Source: a virus. From it: DNA of 23,058 nucleotides. The first letter of the stretch is position 1. Each line of letters starts with the position of its first letter. A program made the position numbers and the translations under genes. The notes beneath the pieces are model-generated. The model saw nothing but the letters and a program-made list of their open reading frames with translations. It was not told where the DNA came from and made no database searches. Positions 382 through 22,959 of the stretch are shown here, piece after piece. The stretch covers positions 1-23,058 of the IMG/VR virus record IMGVR_UViG_3300042691_007563, one strand, 5' to 3'.

Positions 382-798
382 GTGGCTGGCCCCCTGCTGG
401 CCCTGCTGCCGACGCTGCTGCCCGCGCTGACGGAAGTGCTGGACCGGGTGGTGCCTGACCAGGCTGCGGCGGCCAAGGCCAAGCTAGAGATGGAAGCTAG
501 GCTGCTAGAGGCGGCGACCGCGCAGGCTTCGCAGCAAACCGAAATCAACAAAATTGAAGCGGGCCACCAGTCCATCTTTGTTTCGGGTTGGCGCCCATAC
601 ATTGGGTGGGTTTGCGGCATGGCGATTGCGTGGGCCTTCCTTGTGGCACCGATGCTGTCGTGGCTGCTGCCCGTGATGGGTGTGGTGGCGGCGGTGCCCC
701 CGCTTCAGACGGAGTTCCTGCTGGAACTGGTGTTCGCGATGCTGGGCCTAGGCGGCCTGCGTACCTTTGAGAAGCTGAAGGGCGTGGCAGCAAAGTGA
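382..798 (+). CDS. Holin, GTA/phage 3TM type
   Basis: 138 residues from a GTG that directly follows the preceding TAA. Holins accumulate in the inner membrane and at a set time open it so that the endolysin reaches the cell wall. The protein has an N-terminal hydrophobic segment (about 4-20), an amphipathic Ala/Glu/Gln-rich helix (27-60), then WRPYIGWVCG at 70-79 leading into hydrophobic segments at about 74-104 and 110-127, and a LGLGGLRTFEKLKGV end. The W-R-P-x-I-G-W and GLRTFEK signatures are those of the 3TM-type holin family also found in gene transfer agents (GTA_holin_3TM). It overlaps the endolysin start by four bases (GTGA), the usual holin-endolysin coupling. AGAAGG at 368-373 is the probable ribosome binding site. 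Family assignment is firm; lysis timing is inferred. Confidence 0.88.
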   Translation: MAGPLLALLPTLLPALTEVLDRVVPDQAAAAKAKLEMEARLLEAATAQASQQTEINKIEAGHQSIFVSGWRPYIGWVCGMAIAWAFLVAPMLSWLLPVMGVVAAVPPLQTEFLLELVFAMLGLGGLRTFEKLKGVAAK

Positions 799-1277
799 AC
801 TACTGGACGTATCTGAGGGGAGGCAAGAAGGAAGTGGCCGAGCCTGCGCCTGTGTTGGAGTATGCGTCGTGGGAACTGGTGCCTGCGGGCGTGTGGGTAT
901 GGCCGAACTTCAGGCCGCGCGAACTGGCGTGCAAGGGCACGGGCCGCATCCGGTTGCAGCGCAAGGCTGTCGAGGCGTTGCAGGATCTGAGGCATAGGAT
1001 CGGCCAGCCTATGCGTATTGCTTCTGCTTACAGAAGTGCAGAACATAATGCAAGGGTGAAGGGCTCGCCTACTAGTCGGCATATGACCGGCGATGCATTC
1101 GATGTGGTGATGGACGGCCATGACCCCGTCGCATTCGAGACGGCTGCGAGAGAGGCGGGATTTCGCGGCTTCGGGTACTATCCGGAATCTAATCCGCCTT
1201 TCATGCACATCGACATGGGGCCTGCCCGCAAGTGGGGCACCCCCTTTCCCAAGAAGGACACCAGCCGTGAAGCGTAA
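795..1277 (+). CDS. Endolysin, peptidase M15A family (zinc D-Ala-type peptidase)
   Basis: 160 residues from GTG 795, overlapping the holin stop. The domain (about 37-142) is the M15A zinc peptidase fold that cleaves peptide cross-links in peptidoglycan. Visible zinc-ligand motifs are SRHMTGDAFD (His96 and Asp103, pattern S-x-H-x(2)-G-x-A-x-D) and FMHIDMG (His138). The RIASAYRSAEHNARV segment (74-88) is the typical conserved strand-loop before the first histidine. No signal peptide is present, in keeping with export through the adjacent holin's lesions. No i-spanin/o-spanin pair is visible next to it. The C-terminal KKDTSREA is encoded by DNA that includes AAGAAGG at 1251-1257, nine bases before the GTG of the next gene, which overlaps this one by 11 bases. 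An alternative name is D-Ala-D-Ala carboxypeptidase-like lysin. Confidence 0.88.
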   Translation: MNYWTYLRGGKKEVAEPAPVLEYASWELVPAGVWVWPNFRPRELACKGTGRIRLQRKAVEALQDLRHRIGQPMRIASAYRSAEHNARVKGSPTSRHMTGDAFDVVMDGHDPVAFETAAREAGFRGFGYYPESNPPFMHIDMGPARKWGTPFPKKDTSREA

Positions 1278-2785: not shown

Positions 2786-2970
2786 TGGCTAAGAAGCCCG
2801 AAAGCCGGGTGAACGAAGCGGGCGTCTACACGAAGCCCGGTATGCGTAAGTCCTTGTTCGAACGCTTGAAGGCGGGAGGCAAGGGCGGCAAGCCGGGTCA
2901 GTGGAGCGCCCGCAAAGCTCAGATGCTCGCCTCAGAATACAAGGCGAAGGGCGGCAAGTACCGTGACTAA
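2785..2970 (+). CDS. Conserved small phage protein (GKPGQWSARKAQ type, 61 aa)
   Basis: 61 residues from ATG 2785. The core YTKPGMRKSLFERLKAGGKG followed by GKPGQWSARKAQMLASEYKAKGG is a pattern I recognise from many environmental phages and some giant viruses ([YT]-x-P-x-x-R-x-x-[LI]-x-x-x-x-x-[AG]-G-x-K-G-G-x-P-G-Q-W-S-A-R-K-A-Q). Its function is not known to me; I recall that it belongs to a named domain of unknown function but will not cite a number from memory. It is basic and probably a short helical DNA- or protein-binding unit. It overlaps the endonuclease VII start by eight bases. Confidence 0.82.
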   Translation: MAKKPESRVNEAGVYTKPGMRKSLFERLKAGGKGGKPGQWSARKAQMLASEYKAKGGKYRD

Positions 2971-3391
2971 GTCCTGCCTCCACTGCAAGCAAGAGAAAGA
3001 ACTGACTGAATACTATCAGTTCTATGACAAGTGGACGGAGCGCAAATTTTATAGCTCGCGTTGCCGTCCATGCCATTTGCTGTATAAGCACACTAACCCA
3101 AACACTAAGCGTAATCGCAAAGCCGAAAAGCTGAAGCTGCGCTACGGGTTAGAGCATAGCCAGTGGGAAGAAATTCGCAAAGAGCAGAATTATTCCTGTA
3201 TGATTTGCGGTATCGAAGAGACGGCGTTGGGTAGGAAGCTGGACGTAGATCATTGTCACGCTACCGGAGTAGTGCGTGGCGTTCTTTGCAACCCCTGCAA
3301 CACGGTTCTGGGCCATGCTCGCGACAAGATTGAAGTCTTAGAAGCTGCCGCCGAATACCTCAAGCAAAATGCGAAAGGCTATAAGTCGTGA
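2963..3391 (+). CDS. Recombination endonuclease VII family (HNH-type, His-Me finger)
   Basis: 142 residues from GTG 2963. T4 endonuclease VII (gp49) resolves branched DNA before packaging; free-standing relatives are common in phages. The nuclease half shows a paired zinc site (Cys79, Cys82 and Cys109, Cys112) with DHCHATG at 96-102 and VRGVLCNPCN at 104-113, matching the T4 enzyme's Asp-His-x-His and zinc-adjacent Asn. The N-terminal 40 residues carry an extra zinc ribbon (Cys5, Cys8, Cys34, Cys37), which many small phage homologues share. The gene is visibly richer in A+T than its neighbours, and it interrupts a run of very small conserved proteins, so separate acquisition is plausible. It may act in packaging or as a mobile nuclease; the sequence does not decide. 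Confidence 0.88.
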   Translation: MTKSCLHCKQEKELTEYYQFYDKWTERKFYSSRCRPCHLLYKHTNPNTKRNRKAEKLKLRYGLEHSQWEEIRKEQNYSCMICGIEETALGRKLDVDHCHATGVVRGVLCNPCNTVLGHARDKIEVLEAAAEYLKQNAKGYKS

Positions 3392-3633
3392 AGGCCCCGC
3401 AGAAGTCGCTGGTCGATTGGACCAAGCAGAAGTGGCGCACCAAGTCGGGCAAGCCCAGTACGCAGGGACCGCAAGCTACGGGTGAACGGTACTTGCCCGA
3501 GGCCGCTATTAAGGCTATGCCTGCCTCGACTTATGCGGCGAGTAGCGCGGCGAAGCGGAAGGCGACGAAGGCTGGCAAGCAGTTTTCTAAGCAGCCTGCC
3601 AGCGCCGCCGGTATCGCGAAGAAGTTCCGCTAG
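3388..3633 (+). CDS. Conserved small phage protein (WTKQKWRTKSGKPS type, 81 aa)
   Basis: 81 residues from GTG 3388, overlapping the nuclease stop by four bases (GTGA); GAAAGG lies nine bases upstream, inside the nuclease gene. The segments DWTKQKWRTKSGKPSTQGP, GERYLPEAAIKAM and KRKATKAGKQFSKQP form a pattern repeatedly seen as a small protein of unknown function in environmental phages. It is highly basic, with no Cys and no hydrophobic segment. It is the last plus-strand gene. Its TAG (3631-3633) shares the palindrome CTAG with the TAG of the convergent minus-strand gene. Confidence 0.82.
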   Translation: MKAPQKSLVDWTKQKWRTKSGKPSTQGPQATGERYLPEAAIKAMPASTYAASSAAKRKATKAGKQFSKQPASAAGIAKKFR

Positions 3634-3648
3634 AACGGGTACTCTTCG
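3617..3648. terminator. Weak two-part dyad across the convergent stop codons
   Basis: CGAAGA (3617-3622) can pair with TCTTCG (3643-3648), and inside it GTTC (3624-3627) can pair with GAAC (3633-3636) around the shared CTAG. There is no T tract on either side. It is the only candidate for a bidirectional stop signal between the two operons, and it lies inside both coding regions. The imperfect pairing makes this weak. Confidence 0.25.
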
Positions 3649-5774
3649 GGGGCCGTGTAGTTGTTGACGGTCTGCTCCCAGATGAGGGCGCCCGCACCCT
3701 CGCCGTGGAACTTTACGGAAATGCGGTTCTCGACAAGCCAACGATTCCACTGACCGAGGTCTTGCATGGCAGCGACGAGTTCGCCGGTTGTCAGGAAGGA
3801 CCGTTCTTCTGCGCCCAGCGTCACGCGCATGAGTTGCTGCTTGACGGAATCCTTGTCGGTGTCTTCCGGGTAGAAGAAGTCGTAGCCGTAGAACTCGAAG
3901 CGGCGGAAGCCCATGATGAAGGCCAGCATAGGAATGCGGGTAGCGGAACAGGTGCCGCCCGCAATGATGAGGCCGGTGTCGAAGGCCGGGGGCCTAGCTT
4001 CGAGGGTGCTTTGAGTGTGGGCGTGCCAGCCAAAGAGTTGGGCACCCTTCTCTTCGAGGACAGCCCGCACCGAGGGGTGCGTCATGGTGGCGAAGAGGAA
4101 GCGGTCTTCGGGGCCGACGCTTGCGAAGAGGTCCGTGCGGACGATGCCGTGCGTGGACTTGCCATCGACCGGGCGCGGATCAAGGATGACGGTCCAGTCG
4201 GGCGTGATACCGGCAGCCTTCAGGACGGGCAGGGAGTGCTTGACCGCGAAGACGGTAGCACCTGCGGCCTGACGAGTGCGGATCTCTTCGAGGAAGTTGG
4301 GTAGGGTGGGGCCTGCACTGACGAAGAGGGCAACGCCTTCGTGCGCCTGGTAGGAGCCGATCCAAGTTGGAATGGCGGCAGCGTTGTCCGCAATATGCTG
4401 GAGCTGTTCGCCCTTGTCAACAGAGTCGACGGGCTTTACTTGGATGCGGGTGCGGAGGTCAGGCAGCGGGTAGCCGTCGCGGACGACGAGGCCGAACGAG
4501 ATGGTCTGGGTCAGGCCCGCGTAGCCGTCGCCGCTGGTGATGATCCGCTTCTGGCCCGCGATCTCCTTGATGACGCGGCGCGGACCTTCCGGTGCGCCCT
4601 CTTCCTCATTGACGATGACGTCATCGAAGACGATGAAGGGAACGTGCTTCAGGCATTCGTAGTCCGACTTGGTCGTCTCGTAGGAGTGGCCGCCGTCGAT
4701 GTAGGCGAAGGTGGCGTCGGCTACAATGGAGGTGGAGGCGGGCAGCGTTTCGAGTGTGTTGCCCTTGATAAGGGAGAAGGCGAAGGTCAGACCCTTGCGG
4801 GCCATGAGGCGGCTGTAGTTGTTGAGGCGGTTGTGGACAATCCAAGAGTCCGCGTGGGGCTTGGTGTGGCCCTCATGGACGCGGTCGTTGCCGCCCTCGA
4901 AGGTGTCGAAGCCGACGTAGGACACGGTCTTGACGCCGGTAGCGAAGGCCGCTTCGGCCATCTGGACTGCGCGGCTGCCGTTCCATGTGCCGACTTCCAC
5001 AATGCGGGCAGCGTTGGTTGCGTCGATGGAGGAGGTCAGAAGTTCGCATAGCGTTTCATAGCGGGCCGGGGCGCCGAGTGCGGGGTTGGCAATGGTCTGC
5101 TTGTCGGGGCCTTTGTAGTGGACCATGTAGGCCGCGAGCGGAGATTGGTGGAAGGCATCGAGGCCGAGGCAGCCGGGCGACAGGTTCTTGACTTGCAGGC
5201 CGTGCGCCTGGTGCAGCAGGGTGATGCGGTCAAGGATTGCGTTGTCGTGCGCCTTCTTGTAGTGGAAAGCTTCCAACGAATTGTAGAGGCCCCAGTAGTC
5301 GGCTAGGAGGGAGGCACCCTTGACGGTAGCCAGATTGAAGGCGAACCACGAACCTTCGCTTTCCTTGACCGTGCGTCGGTACAGGTAGGTCAGGTGGAAG
5401 GCGTCGTCGAAGAGTTCGCCAAGGAGGTCGGCGTCGACGGGCCGCATGGTTTCGGTGTCCGCGTCGATGAAGCCGATCCAGTCTAGGGAGGGCGTCACGC
5501 TGGAGGCGAGGGCGACTGCCTTGAAGCAGTAGTCGAGGGACGGGCCGTCCTTGGCCTTGGCACCGAGGTGGGCCTTGAGCTTCTGGAAGGAGGCCGTGTC
5601 TTCGAGGGCGCGGAACTGAATGCCGGGGAAGGAAGGGACCTTGCCTTCGAGGTCGTGGTGCCAGATTTCAAGTTCGATATCGGCGGGCCAGAACTTCTTG
5701 AAGGACTCGGCAAAGCGCAGGCCATACCGTTCCCAAGAGTTGGGGCCGATGGTGGTGATGATCTTAGCGCGCAT
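3630..5774 (-). CDS. Three-domain glycan enzyme: glycosyltransferase / SAM methyltransferase / Maf-like (DUF115)
   Basis: 714 residues; ATG at 5774 lies 11 bases inside the upstream glycosyltransferase gene, with GGAG nine bases before it. Residues 1-225 look like a GT-A glycosyltransferase: IITTIGPNSWERYG at the start and a metal-binding D-x-D motif IGFIDADTE (Asp104, Asp106). Residues 240-420 are a class I methyltransferase: VEVGTWNGS (260-268, SAM-binding loop), GFDTFEGG (288-295), YIDGGHSYE (358-366) and VFDDV (382-386), as in Methyltransf_24. Residues 478-650 resemble DUF115/Maf motility-accessory glycosyltransferases: FVSAGPTL (484-491), SLPVLKAAGITPDWTVILDP (514-533) and FYGYDFFYPED (628-638). 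Maf proteins add nonulosonic acids to flagellin in bacteria. Here the fusion probably builds or caps a glycan; acceptor and sugar are unknown. No secretion signal is visible. Confidence 0.78.
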   Translation of the reverse strand: MRAKIITTIGPNSWERYGLRFAESFKKFWPADIELEIWHHDLEGKVPSFPGIQFRALEDTASFQKLKAHLGAKAKDGPSLDYCFKAVALASSVTPSLDWIGFIDADTETMRPVDADLLGELFDDAFHLTYLYRRTVKESEGSWFAFNLATVKGASLLADYWGLYNSLEAFHYKKAHDNAILDRITLLHQAHGLQVKNLSPGCLGLDAFHQSPLAAYMVHYKGPDKQTIANPALGAPARYETLCELLTSSIDATNAARIVEVGTWNGSRAVQMAEAAFATGVKTVSYVGFDTFEGGNDRVHEGHTKPHADSWIVHNRLNNYSRLMARKGLTFAFSLIKGNTLETLPASTSIVADATFAYIDGGHSYETTKSDYECLKHVPFIVFDDVIVNEEEGAPEGPRRVIKEIAGQKRIITSGDGYAGLTQTISFGLVVRDGYPLPDLRTRIQVKPVDSVDKGEQLQHIADNAAAIPTWIGSYQAHEGVALFVSAGPTLPNFLEEIRTRQAAGATVFAVKHSLPVLKAAGITPDWTVILDPRPVDGKSTHGIVRTDLFASVGPEDRFLFATMTHPSVRAVLEEKGAQLFGWHAHTQSTLEARPPAFDTGLIIAGGTCSATRIPMLAFIMGFRRFEFYGYDFFYPEDTDKDSVKQQLMRVTLGAEERSFLTTGELVAAMQDLGQWNRWLVENRISVKFHGEGAGALIWEQTVNNYTAPEEYPF

Positions 5775-6534
5775 CGGCGTAGGCTCCGAGGAGTTCGTTG
5801 GTCCAGAAGTTGTCGAAGGGGGTGGGCTCGCGGTCGATCATGCCTGGCACGGGCGGCCCGTAGGTGAAGTGGATTCCGTTGATGGGCAGGGGGCGGTGCG
5901 CGCCTTCGGCGGCAAGCCCGGCTTCGGTGGTGGGGCTGTAGTTGGGAACCCAGTGCCACGACTCGGAGAGGTAGCCAATGTCGGAATCGTCCAGCCACTC
6001 GAAGCCGTGGAGGTAACTGCCGGGAGCGGAGTTCACCATCTCAAAGGTGGGCAGCTTCTTGGACTTGAGGTTCCACAGCATGAGGGCCGACCACATCTTG
6101 CGGTGGTAGCGGGACTGGCGCTGGCCGTCCATCTTCACGGTGGTCGTCGGGTTGAAGTTGTGGGGCACGACCATGACCGTCTTGGTGGGATCGGCTTGGC
6201 GCGTCAGCTTGTGGATATCGTCGAGCCACAGCCAGTCGCAGTCGGTGAAGAGTGCCCAATCGGTCACGCCGTCGGACTGTGCGACAATGGGAGTGAGGAA
6301 GCGGGAGTGGGAGAACTGGACGCTGAACGGACGCCCATCTCGTTCGTCGAGGTAGGAGCCGTCTTCGCAGATGCGCCATGGCCGGTCGAAGAATTGGCGG
6401 CGGCGCAGGTCCAGATGTTCGAGGTGCCGGATTGTCAGCGGCTTGCTGGCATAGGCACGGGCCGAGGATTCGGTGACGCGCAGAGCCTCCGGTTCACGGT
6501 GGTCCACGCCGATGTAATAAGCGAAGTTTGTCAT
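5764..6534 (-). CDS. Glycosyltransferase, GT-A fold (DCD motif)
   Basis: 256 residues from ATG 6534. I prefer this to an in-frame ATG at 6570, which lies within the promoter -35 box and adds 12 residues outside the family pattern. MTNFAYYIGVDHREPEAL at the N-terminus, FSVQFSHSRFLTPI (70-83), WALFTDCDWLWLDDI (93-107, D-x-D metal and nucleotide-sugar site), a KMDGQRQSRYHRKMWSALML segment and YLHGFEWLDD match a family of bacterial and phage glycosyltransferases with a nucleotide-diphospho-sugar transferase fold. The C-terminal INGIHFTYGPPVP carries the late His of these enzymes. It is the first gene of a two-gene unit with the three-domain enzyme downstream, overlapping by 11 bases. No ribosome binding site precedes it and the promoter is almost touching the start, which suggests a leaderless message. 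Acceptor and sugar cannot be read from the sequence. Confidence 0.82.
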   Translation of the reverse strand: MTNFAYYIGVDHREPEALRVTESSARAYASKPLTIRHLEHLDLRRRQFFDRPWRICEDGSYLDERDGRPFSVQFSHSRFLTPIVAQSDGVTDWALFTDCDWLWLDDIHKLTRQADPTKTVMVVPHNFNPTTTVKMDGQRQSRYHRKMWSALMLWNLKSKKLPTFEMVNSAPGSYLHGFEWLDDSDIGYLSESWHWVPNYSPTTEAGLAAEGAHRPLPINGIHFTYGPPVPGMIDREPTPFDNFWTNELLGAYADAR

Positions 6535-6584: not shown

Positions 6585-9500
6585 TTATTGGTTGCGCCAC
6601 TGAGAACGCTCGATCATTTCCTGTGCGGCAGGTCGAGCGGGAACACGGGTGCCCGGAACAAGAACTTCAGGCGAGCCCCTGCCCAGCAAGTCTTGGCGGG
6701 CGCGGGTGACGATTGCCGGTTCGTTGATACGGACTTGGAACTGGGGCGGCTTGTCTTCTTGTTCGCGTTCGATCTCGGCTTTGCGGGCACGGTACTGGGA
6801 CATGAAGCGTTCGACAGCGGCGTCGTCGCCGGTTCGCTGGGCTTCCATTGCGCGCATGACGTAGCGGGACAGTTCGATGTTGGCGCGTTCGGTTGCGTCG
6901 CGAGTAGCGGTGTTCAGTTCGCGAGCGCGATTGGCGGTGCGCCGAATGTCAGCGAACTCGGGTGGAGAGAAGCCGATGGCTTGACGGGCCGCTGCCGGTA
7001 GGATACCGGATTCATCGGCAGCGCGGACTTGTTCGGGCGTGATGATGCGGCCCTGCCGCTTGGTAAACTGCTCTTGGTCGATTGCAAGCTGGCCGCCCTT
7101 GGCTACGTTGGCGAAGGCGGTAGGCAGCAGCGCGTAGGACAGGCCCCAATAGTCGCCCAGTTGCCAGGCTTGATAGGCGTCCAAGCCCTTCTGGACTAGA
7201 CCGCCGACCGGGCCGAGGGCAGAGAGGACGTCCCATTCGGTGACGCTGCCTTGGGGAAGGGGGTCGATCTTGAGGCGGCTGTTCAGGCTGATGGAACCCC
7301 AAGCGTGAGGGAAGCCGTAGCTGAGGGCGGATGCGAGGAAGTTGTTGCCAAGGGCGTTTTCAAGTTCTTGTTCGTAGTCCACGATGTCATCGAACGCCAG
7401 CTTGAGGACGGCTTCGGTGAGGTCGCGCATGCGTTCTGCGAGAGGGAGGGACCAGACGCCAGCGAGGGCGACTTGAGCGGCAACCATGGCGGCGAACTGG
7501 AGGGCGGCGGCGCGGGCCATGGTGGGGTCGTTCTTGCGAAGGCCCTCGATGGTTTGCTTGGCGCTGCGAGCATACAGTTCCATCAGCTTGAAGACAGGTG
7601 ACATGAACTGCGTCATCATTTCAGCGACCGGGTGGAAGCGTTGGATGAGAGCGCGGTCTTCCTTGGTGGAGCGGAAGTTGGTGTCGCTGGTCACGCCTTC
7701 AGCGTATTCGTAGGCGTTGTTGTAGGTGCGATTGTCGAGGCGGCCCGCGCGTGCCATAACTTCAGGGCGTGCCTTGGCGAGACGGTAGGCCGCGAGGAAG
7801 GCGGTGGCACGGTTGGTTTCGTCAACGGTTGCCAGCATTCGACCGGACAGATCGAGGACCTTGTTGAAGTTATTGGCGAAAGCGGTGGCGTCGCGGTCTG
7901 CGATACCGGCGTTGCGAATATCGGAAGCGGAAATGGTGCTGCGGAGTTCGACGGTCTGGACCGGGTTGAGGCGGCCTTCGCGGAGAGCGCGCTGGAGAGC
8001 GGTGACTTCGTCGGCTTTCAGGGTGCCGCGCTGAATGAGGCGCTTGGTCTGATCCATTTCCTTGCCGAACACGCGGAGCGCATCGAGCGTACCGTAAACG
8101 TCCTTGGCCGCAGATCCGTAGTAGCGGAAGGAAGCCGGGCCACCACCATCGCGCAGCAGGCGGGGCACGAGAACGGTCGGGTTCTGCGTCATCTGAATGG
8201 CGGCGGTACTGATGTTAAAGCCGAGGAACATGAAGAACGCGAGAGCGCGGCCAGTACCGAAGGCTTCAGTGGGGGTGGTGCTGTAGTCTAGGAGGTCGTT
8301 CCAGTACTGACGTTCTTCGCTGTTGTAGCCGTCGAGTGAACGGTTGAAGTCGTCTTGGACGGTGCGGCGAGCCTGGACTTTGGACGCGGCAATGAAGTAC
8401 TTGGGCAGGGTGTCACGGATATAGTCGGTTGCGTTTTGCGGGGTGACGGCCCGGAGCAGGTCGTTGTTCGGGCGGAAGATGCGATCCATCTGCGCCTTGT
8501 CGATTTCCTTCGACATGCGAGCGATGATCTGCTTGGCTTCCTTGCCGCTGACCTTGCTGAGTTCTTGGAGGTACTGGGCGATGAAGTCCCCGTCGCGGCG
8601 CAGATCGGCGGCACGGGAATCGTTCTCGGCTTCGACGCCACGCTGCATGACACGGAAGCGGGAGGTGTCGGGGAACTCTTCGCGGAGTGCGCGGATGGCG
8701 TCGGCTTCCGGGTCGCGCTGAATGCCCAGCTTTTGGCGGGCCTTGCGGACGCCGCGCACCGGATCGAAGAAGTAGATGCGAACCAGCCTTTCTTTGCCGC
8801 CCGGCTGACGTTCGTAGGCTGCGGCGAAGTGCGTGCCCGTTGAGATTTGCGGGAAGAAGAGGGGATCGCGCCTAGCATTCAGGCGACGGACTTCGCGGGC
8901 ACCATCTTCGGAAGCGGCGCGCAGTTCGGCATCTGACATCTGGGTGACGAGACGGTCGCCCTTGGTGCGCTGGAAGGCTTCGAGGCGTGCACGGTCTTGG
9001 GGCGTCGTGGCGTTGGCCGGATTGAAGAAGCGGGTCGTGTATGCGTCAATGTAGTAATCGAGCATACGTTGGCCAGCTTGCAGTAGTCCGTCCATAGCAG
9101 CGTTTTCTTCTGCTGTAAAGGCGTTGCGGTCGGGTGCTTGCTTGCGACTACGCGCTTCTTGCAGGGCTAGTGCGATGCGTGCCTGCGAAGCGGCAGGCAG
9201 TGCGAGGGCAGGCTCGAAGAGTTGGGTGGCCTCGTTGAGGGCGGCGTGGTTGCGGACATACAGCCGGTCCATCTGGTCCGCAGTAGCCCGGTAGCGGGGC
9301 TGCTTGCCGAAGGTGGCGATAGGCGAAGCGAACCACTTGCCGAAGAAACCGCCACGGAAACCGTCTTCAATCTGCTTGTCGAGGATGCGGCGCTGCTTCT
9401 GAATGCCTTCGTTCTCTGGCGTCGAGAAGACAGCCTCTTCAACGGTGTTGGTGGGAGCGCCCGCTCCCGTGCCGGGACTGGCTGCGGCAGTAGCTTCCGC

Positions 9501-11372
9501 CAGCGGCACCGCTTCCGGTGCGGGAGGAACAGTTGCGCCGGGCGCAGCCGCTTGCGGGGCAGGAACGGTCTGGCTAAATGCAGCCGACGACGGAACCGCC
9601 GCAGGGGGCTGGGCCGGGGCGGCAGCAGCAGGAGCAGTAGGAGCAGCGGTAGGTGCAGCGGCGGCAGCAGCAGCAGGCGCAACAGGAGCGGCAGGTGCAG
9701 ACAAGGCCGGTGCTGGGGCCGGTGCTTCTACGGTAGGGGCAGGCTGGGCGGCAGGGGCGGCGGCAGGGGCTTGCGGGGCAGGCGGTGCTGGCGCAGCTTG
9801 CGGGATCGCCGCCCCTTCGGTGGCCGGGGGAACGGGGCCGGTTGTAGGGGCAGCGGCTTCTGGCGCGGGTGTCGGCGTGGGTGTAGGTTGCGCCGGGGCA
9901 GGGGTGCCGTAGTTGACTGCATACTTGGTCGGGCTCTCCTTCCTAATGACGCCGGTAGAGGCAAGAGCTTCGAGTTGGTTAGCGACGGCTTTGACTTCTG
10001 CCTTGGTGACACGGGCAGGATCAATGTCGCGGGAGGCGAGGGCCGCCTTGGCAACGGCAGTAGGGGAGAAGGCGTTGAGATTCAGGTCGCCCCGGTTTGC
10101 AGCCTCGGCTAGATTGCTGACCGCGTCGGAGACGTTGGGCTGGTTGGTGTCGGGGATACGCGGGAAGAACTCGGTGAGGGCCTGCTGGCGGGTCTGCTGG
10201 ACAGACTGCTCCCAGTTGGATATGCGCGCAGCGTTCACGAAACCAATGGCTGCTTCGGGCGTGGCGAGCGTGGCGGGCGGAGTGAACTGCGGGTTTTCGG
10301 CAAGGAAGGCGTCGGCTTCCTCGCGGGTCGTGAAGGCTTCGGGCCGGTCGGGAATGGCAAAGGGTGCTGGCCGGGCGGGCGCAGGAGCTTCGGGTGTCGG
10401 AGTGGCGGCAGCGGGAGCGGGAGCGGCTTCGGGAATGGCGGGCGCAGCTTCGGGGGCAGGACGTTCGCCAAAGGCACCGCGCAGCGCACCGCCCGTTACG
10501 CCGCCAGCAGCCGCGCCGCCAAGGGCAGCCTCAAGATATTCACGGCCAGCGCCACCTTCCCGTGTGAAGACAGGGAGGCCAGCCTGTTGACGTTCGAGGG
10601 CGGTCTGGGCAAGTTCGACGGGGGCTTCGATGCCCGCGCCAACAGCAGCACCAGTTGCGACACGCCGGGCAAGACCTTGGCCAGCGGCTTGGGCGGCTTC
10701 GGTAGCGGGACGGCGGAAGACGCGGGCTGCACCGAGAGAGGCAATGTCAGCAACGCTTTCGAGGGGAGCTTGGATGGCGGCAGCGCGGGCAGCAGCACCG
10801 GGGCTGGTGATGTCGCCGCTCTCTTGGATCTGGCGCTCGATGTTAGTGCCGAAGAGTAGCGGGAAGGCAGCGGCAGTGCCGCCGATAATACCGCCGCCAA
10901 TGATACCGGGCAGGCCGAGGGGTGTGCCCAACTTTGCTCCCGTTAGTGCGCCGCCTAGGCCAGCAGCGGTAGCGGGGAGGGAACCGGCGACCGCTTCGGT
11001 GGTTGCGCGGGCAGCACTGCCAACGCCGGTAACGTCGGTGAAGGCTTGGCGCAGTTCGGAGGGGAAAGCGGTTTCAGCTTGGAGTTGTTGCTCGACGCGG
11101 CCCTCACGACCGAACCGTTCTAGGTTGGGGGAGCCGACCGCACGACCAAGCCCTTCGGCTGCTGAATATAGGCTGCTTTGGAATTGGTCGATGCCTGCGC
11201 TGGCACCTTGACGAAGGGAGGTGCCAAGGCCAAGTTGGGTGCGCCGCCAAGCGTCGAACTCTTCGGGACGGTTCTGCTGGAACCAACGGCGACCAGCCTG
11301 GGCGGCAACGCGAGGATCGTCAGTGCCCTCTACGTCAACGAAGGTGTTGTCGTTGAGTTGGACGCGGATCAT
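6585..11372 (-). CDS. Very large internal/ejection-type virion protein (large polyvalent protein-like)
   Basis: 1595 residues from ATG 11372, overlapping the upstream stop by four bases (ATGA). Residues 1-300 are Ala/Gly-rich with long hydrophobic stretches (134-175, 231-250, 281-300), as in podophage proteins injected into the cell envelope with the DNA. Residues 303-340 are Pro/Ala-rich. About 435-488 (FSPTAVAKAALASRDI to KYAVNY) could be a small winged-helix. Residues 490-640 are an almost pure Pro/Ala/Thr linker. Residues 650-1595 are a helical region with ETNRATAFLAAYRLAK (1185-1200) and RFHPVAEMMTQFMSPVFKLM (1245-1264), resembling the C-terminal regions of phage large polyvalent (PLxRFG/LPD38-type) proteins, then a hydrophobic segment (1286-1310). 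No lysozyme or transglycosylase motif was seen. The last structural gene position matches T7 gp16-like proteins. Ejection is inferred. Confidence 0.72.
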   Translation of the reverse strand: MIRVQLNDNTFVDVEGTDDPRVAAQAGRRWFQQNRPEEFDAWRRTQLGLGTSLRQGASAGIDQFQSSLYSAAEGLGRAVGSPNLERFGREGRVEQQLQAETAFPSELRQAFTDVTGVGSAARATTEAVAGSLPATAAGLGGALTGAKLGTPLGLPGIIGGGIIGGTAAAFPLLFGTNIERQIQESGDITSPGAAARAAAIQAPLESVADIASLGAARVFRRPATEAAQAAGQGLARRVATGAAVGAGIEAPVELAQTALERQQAGLPVFTREGGAGREYLEAALGGAAAGGVTGGALRGAFGERPAPEAAPAIPEAAPAPAAATPTPEAPAPARPAPFAIPDRPEAFTTREEADAFLAENPQFTPPATLATPEAAIGFVNAARISNWEQSVQQTRQQALTEFFPRIPDTNQPNVSDAVSNLAEAANRGDLNLNAFSPTAVAKAALASRDIDPARVTKAEVKAVANQLEALASTGVIRKESPTKYAVNYGTPAPAQPTPTPTPAPEAAAPTTGPVPPATEGAAIPQAAPAPPAPQAPAAAPAAQPAPTVEAPAPAPALSAPAAPVAPAAAAAAAPTAAPTAPAAAAPAQPPAAVPSSAAFSQTVPAPQAAAPGATVPPAPEAVPLAEATAAASPGTGAGAPTNTVEEAVFSTPENEGIQKQRRILDKQIEDGFRGGFFGKWFASPIATFGKQPRYRATADQMDRLYVRNHAALNEATQLFEPALALPAASQARIALALQEARSRKQAPDRNAFTAEENAAMDGLLQAGQRMLDYYIDAYTTRFFNPANATTPQDRARLEAFQRTKGDRLVTQMSDAELRAASEDGAREVRRLNARRDPLFFPQISTGTHFAAAYERQPGGKERLVRIYFFDPVRGVRKARQKLGIQRDPEADAIRALREEFPDTSRFRVMQRGVEAENDSRAADLRRDGDFIAQYLQELSKVSGKEAKQIIARMSKEIDKAQMDRIFRPNNDLLRAVTPQNATDYIRDTLPKYFIAASKVQARRTVQDDFNRSLDGYNSEERQYWNDLLDYSTTPTEAFGTGRALAFFMFLGFNISTAAIQMTQNPTVLVPRLLRDGGGPASFRYYGSAAKDVYGTLDALRVFGKEMDQTKRLIQRGTLKADEVTALQRALREGRLNPVQTVELRSTISASDIRNAGIADRDATAFANNFNKVLDLSGRMLATVDETNRATAFLAAYRLAKARPEVMARAGRLDNRTYNNAYEYAEGVTSDTNFRSTKEDRALIQRFHPVAEMMTQFMSPVFKLMELYARSAKQTIEGLRKNDPTMARAAALQFAAMVAAQVALAGVWSLPLAERMRDLTEAVLKLAFDDIVDYEQELENALGNNFLASALSYGFPHAWGSISLNSRLKIDPLPQGSVTEWDVLSALGPVGGLVQKGLDAYQAWQLGDYWGLSYALLPTAFANVAKGGQLAIDQEQFTKRQGRIITPEQVRAADESGILPAAARQAIGFSPPEFADIRRTANRARELNTATRDATERANIELSRYVMRAMEAQRTGDDAAVERFMSQYRARKAEIEREQEDKPPQFQVRINEPAIVTRARQDLLGRGSPEVLVPGTRVPARPAAQEMIERSQWRNQ

Positions 11373-12115
11373 CGAATAGGGTTGCCTCGTGCATCAATGC
11401 GGGCGGCAGGCGCGGGAGGGGCGGTTACGTCGACGGCGCTGGGAGTGGGGGCTCCGCCCGATTGGATTTGCGCGGCACCCTCCAAGATTTGACGGACGCG
11501 GTTATCGCGGAACTCATTGCGGCGGCGTTCGCGTTCGGCGGCCTGCGCGGCACTCTCAGGCATACCGGATGCCGGATTGGGAAACCGCTGGCGAGCTTCC
11601 GCGTCGGCTTGGCTGACGATTTGTGCGTAGCGTTCGGGCGTGATCTGGCCGCGAGGACCGCCCGCGCCAGCACCGCGACCGCCCTGCCTGTAGTATTCTG
11701 CGAGGGCACGGGCCTGCTCGGCTTGTGCGGCGCGGTAAGGCGCATTAGCCTCAAGTTCTTGGCGGCGCAGGGCGAGTTCTTCGCGGCGACGTTGTTCTTC
11801 AATGTCGAGAGCGCGTTGTTGGCGTTCGGTTTCTGCGAGTTGGCGGAGGCGGTCGGTGCGGGAGCGTTCACCTTCGGCTTGCGCGCGAGTGCCTGCGGCG
11901 AGGTTCGTGAAGAAGTTGGGGCTGCCGGATGCGAGCATACCAGCGCCAAACTCCCGCATGCGGGTCAGGTTCTCGCCTTCCAGTTCACGGGCTGACCGCT
12001 CGCGGAGCATGTCAAGGAGCGAGCGCGGCTGCGCCTGTCCGGAAGGAGCAGGAGGGCCATACACTTGCTGGTCGCTAAAGTTGGGGTCCAGATAAATGTC
12101 GCGCGGATTTACCAT
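11369..12115 (-). CDS. Coiled-coil protein, candidate internal virion protein
   Basis: 248 residues from ATG 12115, with AGGA eight bases upstream. The N-terminal 60 residues include LLDMLRERSARELEGENLTR. FGAGMLASGSPNFFTNLAAG (56-75) is a small hydrophobic Gly/Ala segment like those at the start of podophage inner-core proteins. Residues 76-142 form a long charged helix (Arg/Glu/Gln/Ala), almost certainly a coiled coil. After a Gly-rich hinge comes a second charged helical stretch and a Pro/Ala tail. No catalytic motif is present. It overlaps the 1595-residue gene by four bases and sits between two other candidate internal proteins, so a T7 gp14/gp15-like ejection role is a reasonable guess from position. 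Confidence 0.65.
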   Translation of the reverse strand: MVNPRDIYLDPNFSDQQVYGPPAPSGQAQPRSLLDMLRERSARELEGENLTRMREFGAGMLASGSPNFFTNLAAGTRAQAEGERSRTDRLRQLAETERQQRALDIEEQRRREELALRRQELEANAPYRAAQAEQARALAEYYRQGGRGAGAGGPRGQITPERYAQIVSQADAEARQRFPNPASGMPESAAQAAERERRRNEFRDNRVRQILEGAAQIQSGGAPTPSAVDVTAPPAPAARIDARGNPIR

Positions 12116-12124
12116 GTGCTATTC

Positions 12125-13072
12125 CTAGAACAAGCCACGGAGAAAATCAACACCAGTTCTTACGTTGGAGATAAGCCCTGGTAGTTGGGTAGCCCCGCCG
12201 ATAATAGTGCTGAGAGGATTGGCGCCGGGCGTTGTCGTAGATTGAGAACTGCCGATGCCCAAGTTGGAGGGGCCGAGGCCCAAAGAGCCGCGCAGAACTT
12301 CGATGCCGCGCGTCGGGTAGTCGCGTTCTTCCTCGAAGGCCTGGCGGAGGACGTCGAGATTGCGCTGATTGAGGCCCTGTTGCATACCGCCGATCTGGAG
12401 AAGCGGATTGACTTCCGTGCCGAAGCGGGCAGCGGTCTGGTTGAGGCCTGTGCCCAGTTGGCCGAGGGCCGTCGAGTAGAGTTCAGGGATGCGCTGCTGA
12501 TCGGCGCGGAACTGAGTGAGGGCGTTGTTGTAGGCGGCAGCCTGTTGTCGGGCAGTCTCTTCGCCGATGTTACGCTGGGTCGAACGCTCCAGTTCGGACT
12601 CGGAGATAGCCTGACGGGAGCCGCCGAAAGAGCCGGTGCGGGCCGACTGCTGACCGAGGCGAAGACGTTCACGGGCAGCCCGTTCCTCGATTTCGCGGAT
12701 AGCAGGGTCGAGGACCGCCTGTGTGTAAGGCGACATGTACTCTTGGATGTTGACGTCAGGCAGCCGCTGTGCCATCCCGGTCGTGGCGGCAATGCCCTGC
12801 TGAGTTAGCTCGGGGGTCAGGGCGCCAAGGGCACCGGACTGCTGGGCAAGCTGCCGCGTCGTACCGAAACCGGCGAGTTGGTCGGGCGTGAAGCCAGCGA
12901 CACGCGGCTGGTTGTAGAGAGGGAAGGGTTCGTTGGCGAACGCGCGGGCGCGCTCCATCAAATCCTTGCGCGCAGCCTCAACATCAGGCGGAACCTGCGG
13001 AGTAGTGGCTTGCGTATTAGTTTGCCTGCCGGTGCCAAAGATGCTGTTTACGGCATCGCTAAGAATGCTCAT
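12125..13072 (-). CDS. Helical structural protein, candidate internal/ejection protein
   Basis: 315 residues from ATG 13072, which overlaps the preceding TGA. The centre, [20 protein letters not shown] followed by [20 protein letters not shown] (about 111-153), is a strongly conserved pattern I associate with structural proteins of environmental podophages: a YxxPY motif, then an Ala/Arg helix and a GSFGGSRQA turn. The rest is Gln/Ala-rich helix (160-250). The C-terminus is Gly/Ser-rich (262-300) and hydrophobic at the end ([16 protein letters not shown]). No enzyme motif or signal peptide is visible. Gene order (1118-residue protein, this, coiled coil, 1595-residue protein) suggests an ejection complex component, but direct evidence is absent. 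Confidence 0.65.
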
Positions 13073-16000
13073 CGGCCAAGACTCCTCTTGAGGATTTCGC
13101 CAACGGGCAGAGGACCGGCTTGGCGCGTAGTACCGGTCTTGGCGTCGCGAATCTGTCGCATCAAATCATAAAGGCGTCGTGCGCCCGCATTGGAAGAACC
13201 GTCGCCCAGCATGGACACGACGTCAGCAGGGACAACGAACTCGCCATCCGAAAGCGCCGCAGCACGGCGACCATTGATGGAAGTGGGGATCAGATCGTCG
13301 AGGCCGCCACCGGGACCAATGGCAATCTTGCCGCCGCCCGCCAGCGGAACAAGCCCGCCCCCAGCAAACGCGACTAGGCCGCCTTCCTTGTAGCCGCCAT
13401 CACCGCCACCGCCGCCATCACCGCCACCATCGCCGCCATCACCACCGGCATCGCCGCCAGCATCGCCACCGGCACCTTCACCATCGCCAGCGCCTTCGCC
13501 TTCGCCTTCACCTGCCGCTTCACCGGCAGCGGCTTCACTCGCGGCGGCTTCGGCGTCTGCGGCAGCAGCTTCACTTGCAGCGGCTTCTGCGGCGGCAGCT
13601 TCAGCAGCGGCAGCCTCGGCAGCAGCGGCTTCTGCGGCTTGGGCTTCTGCTTGTGCTTCCGCTTCTGCTTGCGCGGCGCTAACAGCCCCGCCCATACCGG
13701 GCATTCCGTCAAGGCCAGCGAGGCCGCCAAATTCGCCGGGAGGTCCGACGGCTTCGCCACGTTCGGCAGCGGCGGCTGCACCAAAGTTACCGGAGCCGCC
13801 TGCCGTGGGGCTGGTGCCAAAGCCGTAACTGCCGGTTTGGCCGGGCTCCGTGGTTGCGAGGCCCTGCTCCATTGCATTAACTTCGGCTGCCGAGAAGCCG
13901 GAAGGGGCGGCGGCGGGACCTGCTGCGGCGACAACTTCCTCAGTAACTGGAACACCAAAGCGCGCAGCTTCTTCGCGGTTGAGGGCGCGGTCAATGATCT
14001 CATTGAATTGGGTTTGGGCTGGCGTACCGATAAGCCCTTGGGACATGTTGCCTATGACAGAAGAGAGCGTGCCAATTTGCTCTTCAGTGAACCCCATTGC
14101 TGCAAGTTCGGCATTAAGGGCGTTCACATCGGAGAGAGTTCCCAGCGCGCCAAGTCCCAAGCCAAGGCCGGGCACGCCCGTCAAGGCTCCTGCTACGGCG
14201 CCAATAGTTTGGCCTGCGCGTCCATAAGGAGCCGTCCCGAAAGTGCGCCCCTCTGTAGTAAGGTTGGCGAGATTGGACAGGGCACCCGTCGGAGCGAACG
14301 AGCGGGCGTCTTCCGGGATCGTGTCCATCATCTCTACGCTGAGGGCACCTTCGTCCGCAAGATTCTCGTAGTCTTGGTCGACAGCGGTTACGTCAGGCTC
14401 CGCCCCAACTTCCTCTTGCCCAAAGAGTCCTTCGGTTACAGGCGCGTCAGGGTCAAGATCCTGTATGATATTGGACATCGGAACGACATCCATCCTAAAG
14501 TACTCAGGCTGTATGATACTGACAGGCTCTTCAACAACGTCCGCTCTATCGAAAAAATCTTGCCCCCAACTAAATATGCCCTGAGCCCAATCAGCAAGTT
14601 GTTGCGCGCGACTGAAAGCTTCCTCACGCTGCGCTTGTAACTCCGGATTCTCAGGGTCACGCGCAAGATCATCGTCGAAAGCCGCAGCAGCAGCAATAGC
14701 AGCGTCTCGTTGCTCCCTTGCATTTTGCATTACCGATTCTACATAATCCCGCTGTTGCTCTAGGGATTCAAATTGTTGCTCTTGCCGCTCCTCTTGTTGC
14801 TGCTGCCGCTCCTCTGGTTGCTGCTGCTGAGGCTGGCTCTGGGTTTGCGTAGGAGTCGCAGTGGCAACAGTGGCAACATTCTGCGTGGCGACATTCTGGT
14901 TAGCGGTGGTGCCGCCGGGGGCGGAGGCTTGGGCGTTGGCTACGTCAGCGAGGCTGCCAAGATCGCCCAGATCGCCAAGGCCGCCAACGGTGCCGGGCGC
15001 GGGGGCCGCAGTGTCTTGAGTCTGGGCAGCAGGCTGCTCGGTTGCTTGCGTGGTAGCGGTCGTGCTAGGGGTGCCAGTCGGCTGTCCCGTTTCGCCCAAG
15101 TTAGTGATACCGCCGTCCTGCTGCTGCTGCTGTGCCGTGGTGTCCTGCGAGACAGCCTGGTCGGGCGAGGTTGTTTCGGCGGGCTGGTTACTGACAGTGG
15201 TTTCGGTGGCAGTGCCCGGCAGGCCGGATAGGCCCGTGTCGGTCGGGGTGCCGCCTTCGGAAACGGTTTGCGTGTCAGTAGAGACAACTTGGCCCGGCGT
15301 TTCTGTGGAGACAGGCGTCGTCGTCGGAAGGTTGCTGAGTGCGCCTTCGTTGGTAACGGTGCCAGTGTCGGTAACGGTTCCCGCGTCGGTGACGGTGGTG
15401 GTGGTGCCTCCTGCAACAGGGGCTTCGCCAATTCCTTCGAGGGCGCCAAGACCAGTGCCTTGTTCGCCAGTAGTGCCGCCTGTCCCGCTCTGCCCCTGAC
15501 CGACCGTGGTGCCCGTGCCGCCAGTTCCGGTGCCGGTGCCACCAATGTCACCTAGACCGCCGCCTGTGCCGGTTCCAATACCAGTGCCAGTTTCAGTGCC
15601 GATGCCGGTTCCGGTTCCAGTCCCTGCTTCGGCGCCAGTGCCGCCAGTGCCCGTCCCAACTCCGGTGCCGCCAGTGCCGGTGCCACCAATGTCGCCCAAG
15701 CCGTCGCCAGTCCCGGTGCCTGTACCGCCGCCAGCAGTTTCACCGCCGAGAGCGGGGCCTAGATTGTCAAGGCTGCCAGTACCTATCGTGACGGTTTCTG
15801 TTGGAGGAGCCGGGGGCGCGACGGGTGCTACAGGCTCAATCGGCGTGATTGGGGGAATGGGCGCAACCGGAATAACAGGGGGCGCGGGCGGCACGACAGG
15901 CGGCACAACCGGGGGTACAACGGGCGGCACGACGGGCGGGGCGGGAGGTGGAGCCGGGGTCGTAGGCGTGGTGGGCAGATCGGTTAAGCCTCCGCCGCCT

Positions 16001-16425
16001 GTGCCACCACCACCACCGCCACCGCCTTCAGCGGGAGGGGGAGTGGGCGTTACGGAGACAGGAGGGGCTTGACGGTAGCGGAAGAAAGACGGGATGCTGC
16101 CGGTCATAGCAGCGGTAAAGGGATCGAAAGAGCCGGGGACGGGAGGCGCGTAAGTGCGATAGACCGTACTCTCAGGGGGAGTAAGGGTCAGCGTAGGAAT
16201 GGTGAAGGGATTGACGCCGTAGTTGATGGGGCGGCCCATCGTGTAGACGGTTTCGTCGGGGAAGCCCATCGTGCGGACTTCGTCTAGGCCCGCGAGGCCG
16301 CCAGTGGCAGCGATGGGTTGCGGCGCGAAAAGCTGGCCTTCAAAGGGCATGCCAGTATTGACAACAGAAACATCGGTTTCTGCGGCGGGAAGCGCGAATG
16401 GGGAGATAGACATGATGTCGGACAT
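13069..16425 (-). CDS. Giant low-complexity virion protein with repeated GLxDL motifs
   Basis: 1118 residues from ATG 16425 with AGAAGG six bases upstream. Parts: an ordered-looking N-terminus (1-120); Pro/Val repeats (160-200); Gly/Thr repeats (232-340); a Ser/Thr-rich zone (341-480); Gln-rich helix (525-560) leading into a charged helix (561-620); an acidic segment (630-705); a hydrophobic Gly-rich segment (736-765); a GGSGN...ERGE...VGP module (876-894); Ala/Glu repeats (916-970); Gly/Asp repeats (975-1010); EGGLV and GGGLV units; and a C-terminal domain with [20 protein letters not shown] (1057-1076) and a [13 protein letters not shown] helix. LSDGE[FY]V-type ends occur in phage tail-associated proteins. 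Short motifs such as GLGDI, ALSNL and GLAGL recur about 13 times. It probably belongs to the tail or inner core; function is unknown. Confidence 0.68.
13515..13680 (-). repeat. Ala/Glu (AEAAA) coding repeat
   Basis: A tandem run of roughly 15-base units coding A-E-A-A-A and relatives (residues about 916-970 of the 1118-residue protein). On the plus strand it appears as GCGGC/GCAGC and GCTTC units. Imperfect copies and GC richness make length change by replication slippage possible without losing the frame. Confidence 0.65.
15442..15729 (-). repeat. Two-copy 144-base repeat in the Gly/Thr zone
   Basis: The 19-base string TGCCGGTGCCACCAATGTC occurs at 15531-15549 and again at 15675-15693, exactly 144 bases (48 codons) apart, each coding GDIGGTG. 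The surrounding Gly/Thr-rich 48-residue units (about residues 233-280 and 281-328) are imperfect copies of each other. The outer boundaries are approximate. Confidence 0.6.
15887..15934 (-). repeat. Four tandem 12-base units (VVPP repeats)
   Basis: Four consecutive 12-base units, GGCGGCACGACA, GGCGGCACAACC, GGGGGTACAACG and GGCGGCACGACG on the plus strand, code V-V-P-P repeats near residues 164-180 of the 1118-residue protein. They form a small in-frame tandem array. Confidence 0.75.
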
Positions 16426-22044: not shown

Positions 22045-22959
22045 TTAGGTGGAACCAGAGGAACCGTACCACTGACGCCAGTCAGACCAACCGAAGCTGT
22101 AACGCTCGCGGGCCTTGTAGCGCATGTTGCCGGTCAGGAAGTCCACATCGTCCTTCGTAGCCAGCGGGGCGCGGACGAACATCTTGGTGCCGTTCGGAAC
22201 GTCCGTCCGAATGAACCAAGCGTTCGGGTCCGTGAACCGGTGGTTGACGGTGTAGCCCTTCGAGAACAGGCCCATGTCCTTCAGCGCGTTCGTGTCGTTG
22301 TCAGCCGTACCGACCCGGAGATCCGAGAACAGGATGCGGTGAGCAACGAACTGAAGCTGCGGCGGAATGTGCAGGCTCACGGCGCGAGCGCCGATCAGCA
22401 GGCCACGGTCATCCTTGGTCAGCGAGATATTGATGAGCGCCGCTTCAAGAGCCGTTTCGGACAGGTCGGTGCTGACCCGGTTGGACTGCGTACCAGCAGC
22501 AAGGGTCGGGTGGCTGGCCGAGAACAGCGGCTGACCGTCACCGCCCGCGTACAGCGAGCTAGTGGAGAAGCCGTTGTTGTAGACGTTCGCCGCCTTGACC
22601 TGCTTGGCATTCGCCATCGCGCGGCCCATCGCGTTCGCCTTCATCTTACCCGTGGTGCCATAGAGGTTGTCCTCGATAGCTTCCTCGGTGATGGCAAACG
22701 CCATGGCAACCGTTTCGTGGGTGTACCGGCTGGTCCAAGCTTCCGACGCGGTGTCGAAGAACACCTGATCGCCTTCCGTCTTGACCGGGGCCGTACCAAA
22801 GCCCGTCATCAGCACTTCTTCTTCGAACGAGCGATCCGACTTCTCAACATCGAAAAGCGGGGTATGCTCGTTGTCAATGCTCTTGTAAGCAGTGCCGAAG
22901 ATAGCATTGAGGCCGGGGACAAGCTGCTTCGCGAATTGGGCGCGAGTCAAAATAGCCAT
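22045..22959 (-). CDS. Major capsid protein, Mu gpT-like (HK97 fold)
   Basis: 304 residues from ATG 22959; GGGGG lies about eight bases upstream. The protein would form the icosahedral shell. The N-terminal region MAILTRAQFAKQLVPGLNAI, followed by TPLFDVEKSDRSFEEEVLM (33-51), and the central helix-strand run AMAFAITEEAIEDN (85-98), then GDGQPLFSASHPTLA (140-154), match Mu-type major head subunits (pattern E..e.mtGfg, I.eE.i.D..y, DG.pLFs..H). The C-terminal portion has KDDVDFLTGNMRYKARERYS and W.DWR.W, as in related podophage capsids. No protease domain or scaffold is fused. The hairpin after the gene may allow higher capsid expression. Confidence in the family is high; exact HK97 subfamily would need structural comparison. 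Confidence 0.85.
   Translation of the reverse strand: MAILTRAQFAKQLVPGLNAIFGTAYKSIDNEHTPLFDVEKSDRSFEEEVLMTGFGTAPVKTEGDQVFFDTASEAWTSRYTHETVAMAFAITEEAIEDNLYGTTGKMKANAMGRAMANAKQVKAANVYNNGFSTSSLYAGGDGQPLFSASHPTLAAGTQSNRVSTDLSETALEAALINISLTKDDRGLLIGARAVSLHIPPQLQFVAHRILFSDLRVGTADNDTNALKDMGLFSKGYTVNHRFTDPNAWFIRTDVPNGTKMFVRAPLATKDDVDFLTGNMRYKARERYSFGWSDWRQWYGSSGST

Follow-up and report, generated by a model that had tools for sequence, protein, structure and literature searches.

Here, we describe a three-domain phage protein that is encoded in the 23,058-base virus record IMGVR_UViG_3300042691_007563 (an uncultured phage; this whole stretch is hereafter the window), and that joins a predicted glycosyltransferase (GT), a class I S-adenosylmethionine (SAM) methyltransferase (MT), and a DUF115/Maf-like domain in a single polypeptide of 714 residues. 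The gene lies on the minus strand (running from 5774 to 3630) next to a second glycosyltransferase-like gene (GT2), and the two may form a cassette that builds an O-methylated glycan with a virion protein of the phage itself as its most likely acceptor, a reading to which we give about an even chance. The three-part composition had been predicted from motifs, and has held up, with the MT and DUF115 parts recognized by Pfam and the GT part by a structural model. Each motif quoted in support also stands at its expected residues, namely D104-A-D106, VEVGTWNGS (259–267), YIDGGHSYE (358–366), ITPDWTVILDP (523–533), and GYDFFYPED (630–638). Chance as the origin of the open reading frame (ORF) and its domains is excluded by the Pfam scores and by recurrence, as the same fusion is found in 95 distinct, contig-complete GT-MT-DUF115 proteins (a count covering all loci fetched).

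No Pfam family matches residues 1–225, and sequence searches of the protein data bank (PDB) with either the whole protein or the GT domain alone gave chance matches only. We therefore relied for this part on an AlphaFold model, which was built on 32 diverse family members (mean pLDDT 80) and replaced an earlier one from close homologs only (pLDDT 68). In this model, residues 1–227 (pLDDT mostly 75–94, with some loops at 37–63) appear to adopt a GT-A fold that resembles BoGT6a (PDB ID: 4ayl; Z 14.5, rmsd 3.5, 182 residues aligned, target 210), other matches being GT6-type α-1,3-galactosyltransferase and ABO transferases, and GT8-type glycogenin and LARGE1. While the fold, the DxD, and a W/A-H-D motif are common to domain 1 and the GT6 family, no sequence match between them is detectable, and at the His190-Asp191-Glu192 motif of BoGT6a the window protein has HD at 176–177 followed by N178 (G, S, or A in relatives), an equivalence judged by eye without structural alignment. 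Since the position of the catalytic glutamate is not matched, we call the domain GT6-like and do not file it as GT6. Among the 95 fusion proteins, DxD is present in 86, DPM or DPH in eight, and NTN in one. Bacterial GT6 enzymes that work independently of metal have NxN at the DxD position and are active (PMC3961637), so a subclade without DxD may still be active. We also noticed that in one subclade (L174, L179, L180, L182, L184, L186, and L187) DPM or DPH replaces DxD and the HD motif is gone; judging by these substitutions, the GT domain there may be inactive or changed.

The middle domain matches PF13578 (Methyltransf_24) over residues 259–377 (E 3.2e-9, 38.1 bits against a cut-off of 26.3), and residues 224–434 of the model resemble CalS11 (TDP-rhamnose 3'-O-methyltransferase; Z 16.3), MycF (Z 15.8), SpnH, and COMT-like enzymes. 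By the model, this domain is closest to the sugar O-methyltransferases CalS11 and MycF. Here, the SAM loop and a putative metal-binding acidic triad (D360/D384/D385) are both recognizable in the window protein. E260, G262, and D290 are found in all 95 fusion proteins and the complete triad in 51, the clade of the window protein (window clade) included; position 360 is aspartate in 56 and glycine in the other 39, and D384 is kept in 90. Thus, the phage MT shares its fold (Z 15–16) and, in the window clade, the D...DD triad with the TylF/MycF/CalS11 enzymes, but differs from them in being fused within a glycosyltransferase and in that the first metal aspartate is missing in 39 of the 95 relatives.

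For the C-terminal part, the proposed relation to DUF115/Maf proved significant, in that residues 481–637 match PF01973 (MptE-like, formerly DUF115; E 1.1e-13, 51.8 bits against a gathering cut-off of 34.6), with the relatives tested also scoring above the cut-off. When a profile of domain 3 was searched against the PDB, its only relatives were Maf (PDB ID: 5mu5; E 0.0012) and MptE (PDB ID: 8sd5; E 0.01), along with the MBP fusion of MptE. In the model, residues 447–691 resemble archaeal MptE (Z 15.8), and the MT and domain 3 together resemble Maf with a Z of 20.9 over 347 residues (5mu5 residues 60–503 against phage residues 234–701), the rmsd of 13.5 being probably an effect of domain placement in the model. 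Moreover, S486, G488, V511-K-H513, L531-D-P-R534, G538, S540-T-H542, R546, G582-W583, and A585, as well as G606-G-T608, R613, G630, D632, G664-E665, and D672, are invariant in all 95 proteins. In fact, 29 of the 33 domain 3 sites that were checked are identical throughout, which makes domain 3 the most constrained part. The fold, a GG...R...GxD pattern (with a common GG-x-R motif), and an N-terminal helix are shared with MptE, an archaeal 6-hydroxymethylpterin diphosphokinase, whereas the phage domain is fused to glycan enzymes and lacks a pterin or folate context. The distances of domain 3 from archaeal MptE and from Maf are about equal. A candidate DUF115 link in a BREX paper was dropped, as it was a prefix match to DUF1156, a different domain.

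Maf proteins consist of a Rossmann-like N-terminal domain, a central PF01973 domain, and a C-terminal helical bundle, and act on protein Ser/Thr; their N-terminal domain has been described as a degenerate Rossmann fold that weakly resembles methyltransferases (PMC11339370). The first two of these domains have counterparts in the phage protein and, as the N-terminal one is methyltransferase-like, we infer that the phage MT-DUF115 pair may be the intact counterpart of both. It is nonetheless improbable that domain 3 is a true Maf that moves CMP-activated nonulosonic acid onto protein. While the PF01973 match, the position of 5mu5 as best sequence relative in the PDB, the alignment of MT and domain 3 with this Maf and its degenerate methyltransferase-like domain, and a weak match to the NCBIfam PseD/Maf model would all fit such an identity, the latter match reaches only 18.2 bits against a curated cut-off of 670, and the helical bundle is absent, the phage protein ending at this point. 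In addition, GG-x-R also occurs in MptE, and domain 3 has an invariant LDPR/STH/GGT signature of its own. Compared with the Maf/PseE flagellin glycosyltransferases, the phage protein further carries an extra N-terminal GT-A domain and an apparently intact MT, and no flagellin or nonulosonate genes were seen with it. Of the original prediction that the protein builds, methylates, and caps a glycan, the glycan-assembly domains and the MT thus stand, but the Maf-like capping with nonulosonic acid is not supported. These results lower the likelihood that domain 3 is a Maf, not that it works as a transferase in the manner of one.

As for the sugar donor, no CMP-nonulosonate genes were seen, whereas one relative (G007, the 59 kb record of the phage of L192) encodes a GDP-mannose 4,6-dehydratase (E 1e-105; L221:5805–6902, minus strand), far from the cassette, with a mannose-6-phosphate isomerase-type cupin in the same scanned set. 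Together with the likeness of the MT to deoxysugar methyltransferases, this dehydratase weakly suggests that the sugar is a deoxyhexose derived from GDP-mannose and not a nonulosonic acid. Within the window clade, none of the 25 scanned ORFs of a 63-kb relative (part of its ORFs) is a nucleotide-sugar gene, and so donors of the host would be used.

An IMG/VR scan with the protein gave 37 loci, in which full-length members of the window clade are nearly equal in length and carry all three domains. The full-length gene is present in 25 further contigs at 71–92% identity and in one at 62–63%. Asp104, Asp106, and the SAM-loop residues, whose loss in close homologs would have spoken against the prediction, are invariant in all of these, as are the DUF115 motifs, the HD motif, and the MT triad. 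Searches with distant members uncovered many more viral contigs with this architecture, at about 30% identity, and the 95 complete proteins fall into 61, 20, and 9 clusters at 95%, 70%, and 50% identity, respectively. In the window clade, median dN/dS values are 0.10 (GT), 0.13 (MT), 0.12 (linker), and 0.13 (domain 3), and hence all parts are under purifying selection. By its signature alone, domain 3 occurs in at least 599 viral contigs, yet a tblastn search of 50,697 deposited phage records found neither the fusion nor domain 3; its matches were to the GT part only, in one uncultured podovirus and in Pelagibacter phage Mosig. Among 84,980 species genomes of bacteria and archaea, scanned twice, matches were confined to two contigs from metagenome-assembled genomes (MAGs), and since both have phage-like neighbors, there is no convincing cellular version. 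These contigs were binned with a Sneathiella MAG (L203) and a Flavobacteriaceae MAG (L204), and the latter shows, by eye, a mannose-6-phosphate isomerase-like cupin gene (11042–11383, minus strand). A member of the same protein family is already deposited in UniProt (A0A6J7X5Q0, uncultured Caudovirales phage; 714 residues, 84% identical) as 'Methyltransferase domain containing protein', with its GT and DUF115 parts unnamed, and no paper describing the fusion family was found in the open-access literature. The family is therefore one whose sequences are deposited but which is, as far as we found, undescribed.

The fusion also exists in reduced and in separate forms. We identified 18 complete GT-DUF115 proteins without the MT, and in a tree of domain 3 these form one clade (support 100/100) nested among three-domain proteins (93/96), for which a single loss of the MT is the best explanation. 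An apparent two-domain GT-MT form (L036) was rejected, given that it ends at a contig edge and that its close relatives carry all three domains. L307 and L309 carry the parts as individual genes of one cluster (L307:1–5894), a Rosetta-stone arrangement that comprises a GT2 truncated at the locus edge, a 284-residue GT-A protein, a second MT, a 220-residue MT matching the MT profile, two further proteins that by eye are MT-like and GT-like, respectively, and a stand-alone domain 3 of 302 residues. The stand-alone domain of L307 begins at the conserved segment that joins the MT to domain 3 in the fusion. Such variation, with the far higher conservation of domain 3, the MT dropped by one clade, and DxD or metal ligands lost in some others, might suggest that domain 3 alone is catalytic, be it as an MptE-like diphosphokinase or another small-molecule enzyme, and that the GT and MT are relics or scaffolds. 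We regard this as very improbable, considering that the window clade keeps DxD, HD, and the MT triad without exception, that dN/dS in the GT and MT equals that in domain 3, that GT6 enzymes of the NxN type need no metal for activity (PMC3961637), and that no folate or pterin genes were seen nearby.

Turning to the gene neighborhood (Table 1), the original prediction had placed the gene next to a second glycosyltransferase and after the virion genes, and this is what we observe. GT2 overlaps the three-domain gene by 11 nt, belongs to phrog_28018 (E 8e-51), and has homologs in cultured phages that are annotated as nucleotide-diphospho-sugar transferase or glycosyltransferase. In 90 of the 93 testable complete fusions, a GT2 homolog ends no more than 150 nt before the fusion start; in the remaining three, it is a few hundred nt away on the upstream side, and the same placement is found in all 17 testable MT-less proteins. 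In the window, GT2 and the fusion follow a 1595-residue internal virion protein, with the holin and M15 peptidase genes beyond them on the opposite strand, while in marine-type relatives the holin comes after the pair, frequently separated from it by a second methyltransferase gene. GT and MT genes are thus present in one phage locus near virion genes, which is the arrangement expected of a virion glycosylation system. No membrane segment is found in either the three-domain protein or GT2, and both look soluble. The capsid protein is 52–57% identical to those of DSL-LC04, HTVC023P, and CRP-901 type phages, which places the phage near these types; neither the window nor its relatives have a tRNA.

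Table 1. Features of the window that make up or surround the GT2–fusion cassette.
Feature	Coordinates	Strand	Basis
Three-domain gene, 714 residues, GT – MT – DUF115/Maf-like	3630..5774	-	ORF and Pfam; fusion kept in 95 distinct complete proteins
Domain 1, residues 1–227, predicted GT-A fold, GT6/GT8-like	5094..5774	-	Model match; no Pfam family
D104-A-D106 (DxD) motif	5457..5465	-	Invariant in window clade
Domain 2, residues 236–435, class I SAM MT (Methyltransf_24 / TylF-MycF type)	4470..5069	-	PF13578 and model
D360, first putative metal ligand of MT	4695..4697	-	Aligned with TrmR IDA motif
D384-D385, putative metal ligands of MT	4620..4625	-	Aligned with TrmR VDN motif
Domain 3 with N-terminal segment, residues 441–714, DUF115/MptE-like, Maf-like transferase domain	3633..4454	-	PF01973, PDB profile, fold
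L531-D-P-R534 motif	4173..4184	-	95/95
G606-G-T-C609 motif	3948..3959	-	GGT 95/95; then R613 95/95
GT2, second glycosyltransferase-like gene, 256 residues from ATG	5764..6534	-	phrog_28018; ORF list opens at TTG 6570
1595-residue internal virion / DNA-transfer-like protein (putative role), directly upstream of GT2	6585..11372	-	phrog_11358; place of DNA transfer protein in phage DSL-LC04
Major capsid protein, Mu gpT-like, lineage marker	22045..22959	-	57% identical to phage DSL-LC04
Holin and M15 peptidase lysis genes, other side of cassette	382..1277	+	Pfam, PHROGs

Several further genes around the cassette were noticed. At the end of the three-domain gene, an endonuclease VII-like gene (2963–3391, plus strand) and a small gene (3388–3633, plus strand) converge on it, the former being present in some close relatives and absent from others. 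Directly upstream of GT2, marine-type relatives have a small gene (L203:6732–7160, L102:3686–4150, and L177:3743–4186), whose L203 copy clearly belongs to the Hsp20 chaperone family. Within the virion block, the products of 13069–16425 and 6585–11372 (both minus strand) contain long Thr/Pro/Gly/Ala-rich low-complexity stretches, with up to 51% S+T+P in 80 residues; such stretches are possible O-glycan acceptors, though high GC would give the same composition. Candidate virion proteins of the window also include the capsid protein, a cement protein, a 618-residue virion protein, and a Thr/Pro-rich protein of 1118 residues.

Based on these domains and their context, we propose that the gene encodes a soluble enzyme with several functions in glycan assembly, which a lytic-type podovirus would make, probably late, with the virion genes and in translational coupling to GT2. 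Domain 1 would transfer a sugar from a nucleotide-sugar donor in GT6/GT8-like fashion with a DxD-bound metal, domain 2 would O-methylate the sugar (probably a deoxyhexose), and domain 3, as a nucleotide-dependent transferase, would most likely bond the glycan to its final acceptor or add a further residue. Being soluble and coupled, GT2 and the fused protein could act jointly, and thereby bring together three transferases and one O-methyltransferase. As this is also the content of the loci for capsid and tail-tube glycosylation in some mycobacteriophages, we favor virion proteins as the acceptor. Alternatively, the cassette could alter a surface glycan of the host (lipopolysaccharide O-chain, capsule, or S-layer glycan) during infection, which would block superinfection or prevent progeny from adhering to debris. 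This is a serious possibility, if a clearly less probable one, since phage glycosyltransferases are often assigned to O-antigen change, as has been argued for SAR11 myophages with their many GT8 genes (PMC7029224), GT8-type enzymes act on lipo-oligosaccharides, and the homologous cluster of Mosig holds a sulfotransferase-like gene with several glycan enzymes. On the other hand, the cassette has no membrane protein, flippase, or polyprenol glycosyltransferase, both of its proteins look soluble, surface exclusion from the virion–lysis block would come late, and Maf-type domains act on protein Ser/Thr (PMC11339370).

Phage T4 glycosyltransferases glucosylate DNA, and by this token the cassette might glycosylate and methylate phage DNA bases against host restriction. 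No PHROGs family covers the whole three-domain protein, and a 'DNA methyltransferase' family does match its middle, albeit weakly and over a generic Rossmann stretch. Since the MT fold is that of small-molecule and sugar O-methyltransferases, the position is in the virion block, and neither the window nor the scanned ORFs of relatives showed a gene for base hydroxylation or hypermodification, we consider DNA modification the least probable of the alternatives.

Several points weigh against glycan assembly on a virion protein. Part of the family lacks the second aspartate of DxD or the metal ligands of the MT, and from these residues the GT or MT domains concerned may be inactive or altered. 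The model has a pTM of 0.46, so that single domains are fairly good and their relative placement is uncertain. Moreover, the Mosig cluster is situated near DNA-metabolism genes and not virion genes, and pelagimyophage glycosyltransferases have been read as modifiers of the host O-antigen (PMC7029224).

A broader proposal, which we put forward tentatively, is that domain 3, with its invariant signature (SxG / VKH / LDPR / STH / GWxA / GGT), founds a new phage transferase family whose role is to start the O-glycosylation of virion proteins, and that GT2 and the fusion together make up a complete two-gene system for protein glycosylation that also adds a methyl cap. Such a system would be widespread among uncultured podoviruses of aquatic habitats, with no known counterpart in cultured phages. 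Phage structural proteins, according to PMC5852040, have rarely been identified as glycosylated. If virions are indeed the target, many environmental podoviruses would carry a sugar coating, with possible effects on how they adsorb, decay, and are recognized. In addition, a pair of genes supplying three transferases together with an O-methyltransferase would make a compact tool for enzymatic work, for which the fused, split, and MT-less versions are a ready series to establish the role of each domain.

Among cultured phages, Caulobacter phage CcrColossus is the relative in which the cassette could be pursued, having at gp126–gp131 (L068:3641–8194) a DUF115-like protein, a GT2 homolog, a class I MT, and a GT9-annotated gene as neighbors, between its tail and lysis genes. 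There, however, the genes are unfused, and gp126 is a shorter and weakly similar DUF115 protein. Pelagibacter phage Mosig likewise has GT2, a stand-alone GT, and an MT side by side (gp188–gp190), though unfused and with MTs of another type that do not match our MT profile. With respect to gene content, the closest parallel is offered by the cluster O mycobacteriophages, in which, according to PMC11600133 (citing Freeman 2023), three tandem glycosyltransferase genes accompany an O-methyltransferase gene and the capsid and tail-tube proteins are modified. Hence, three transferases and one O-methyltransferase per locus, with virion proteins as the proposed target, are common to both, but whereas the mycobacteriophage genes are separate, the GT, MT, and DUF115 parts are here fused and only GT2 stands apart.

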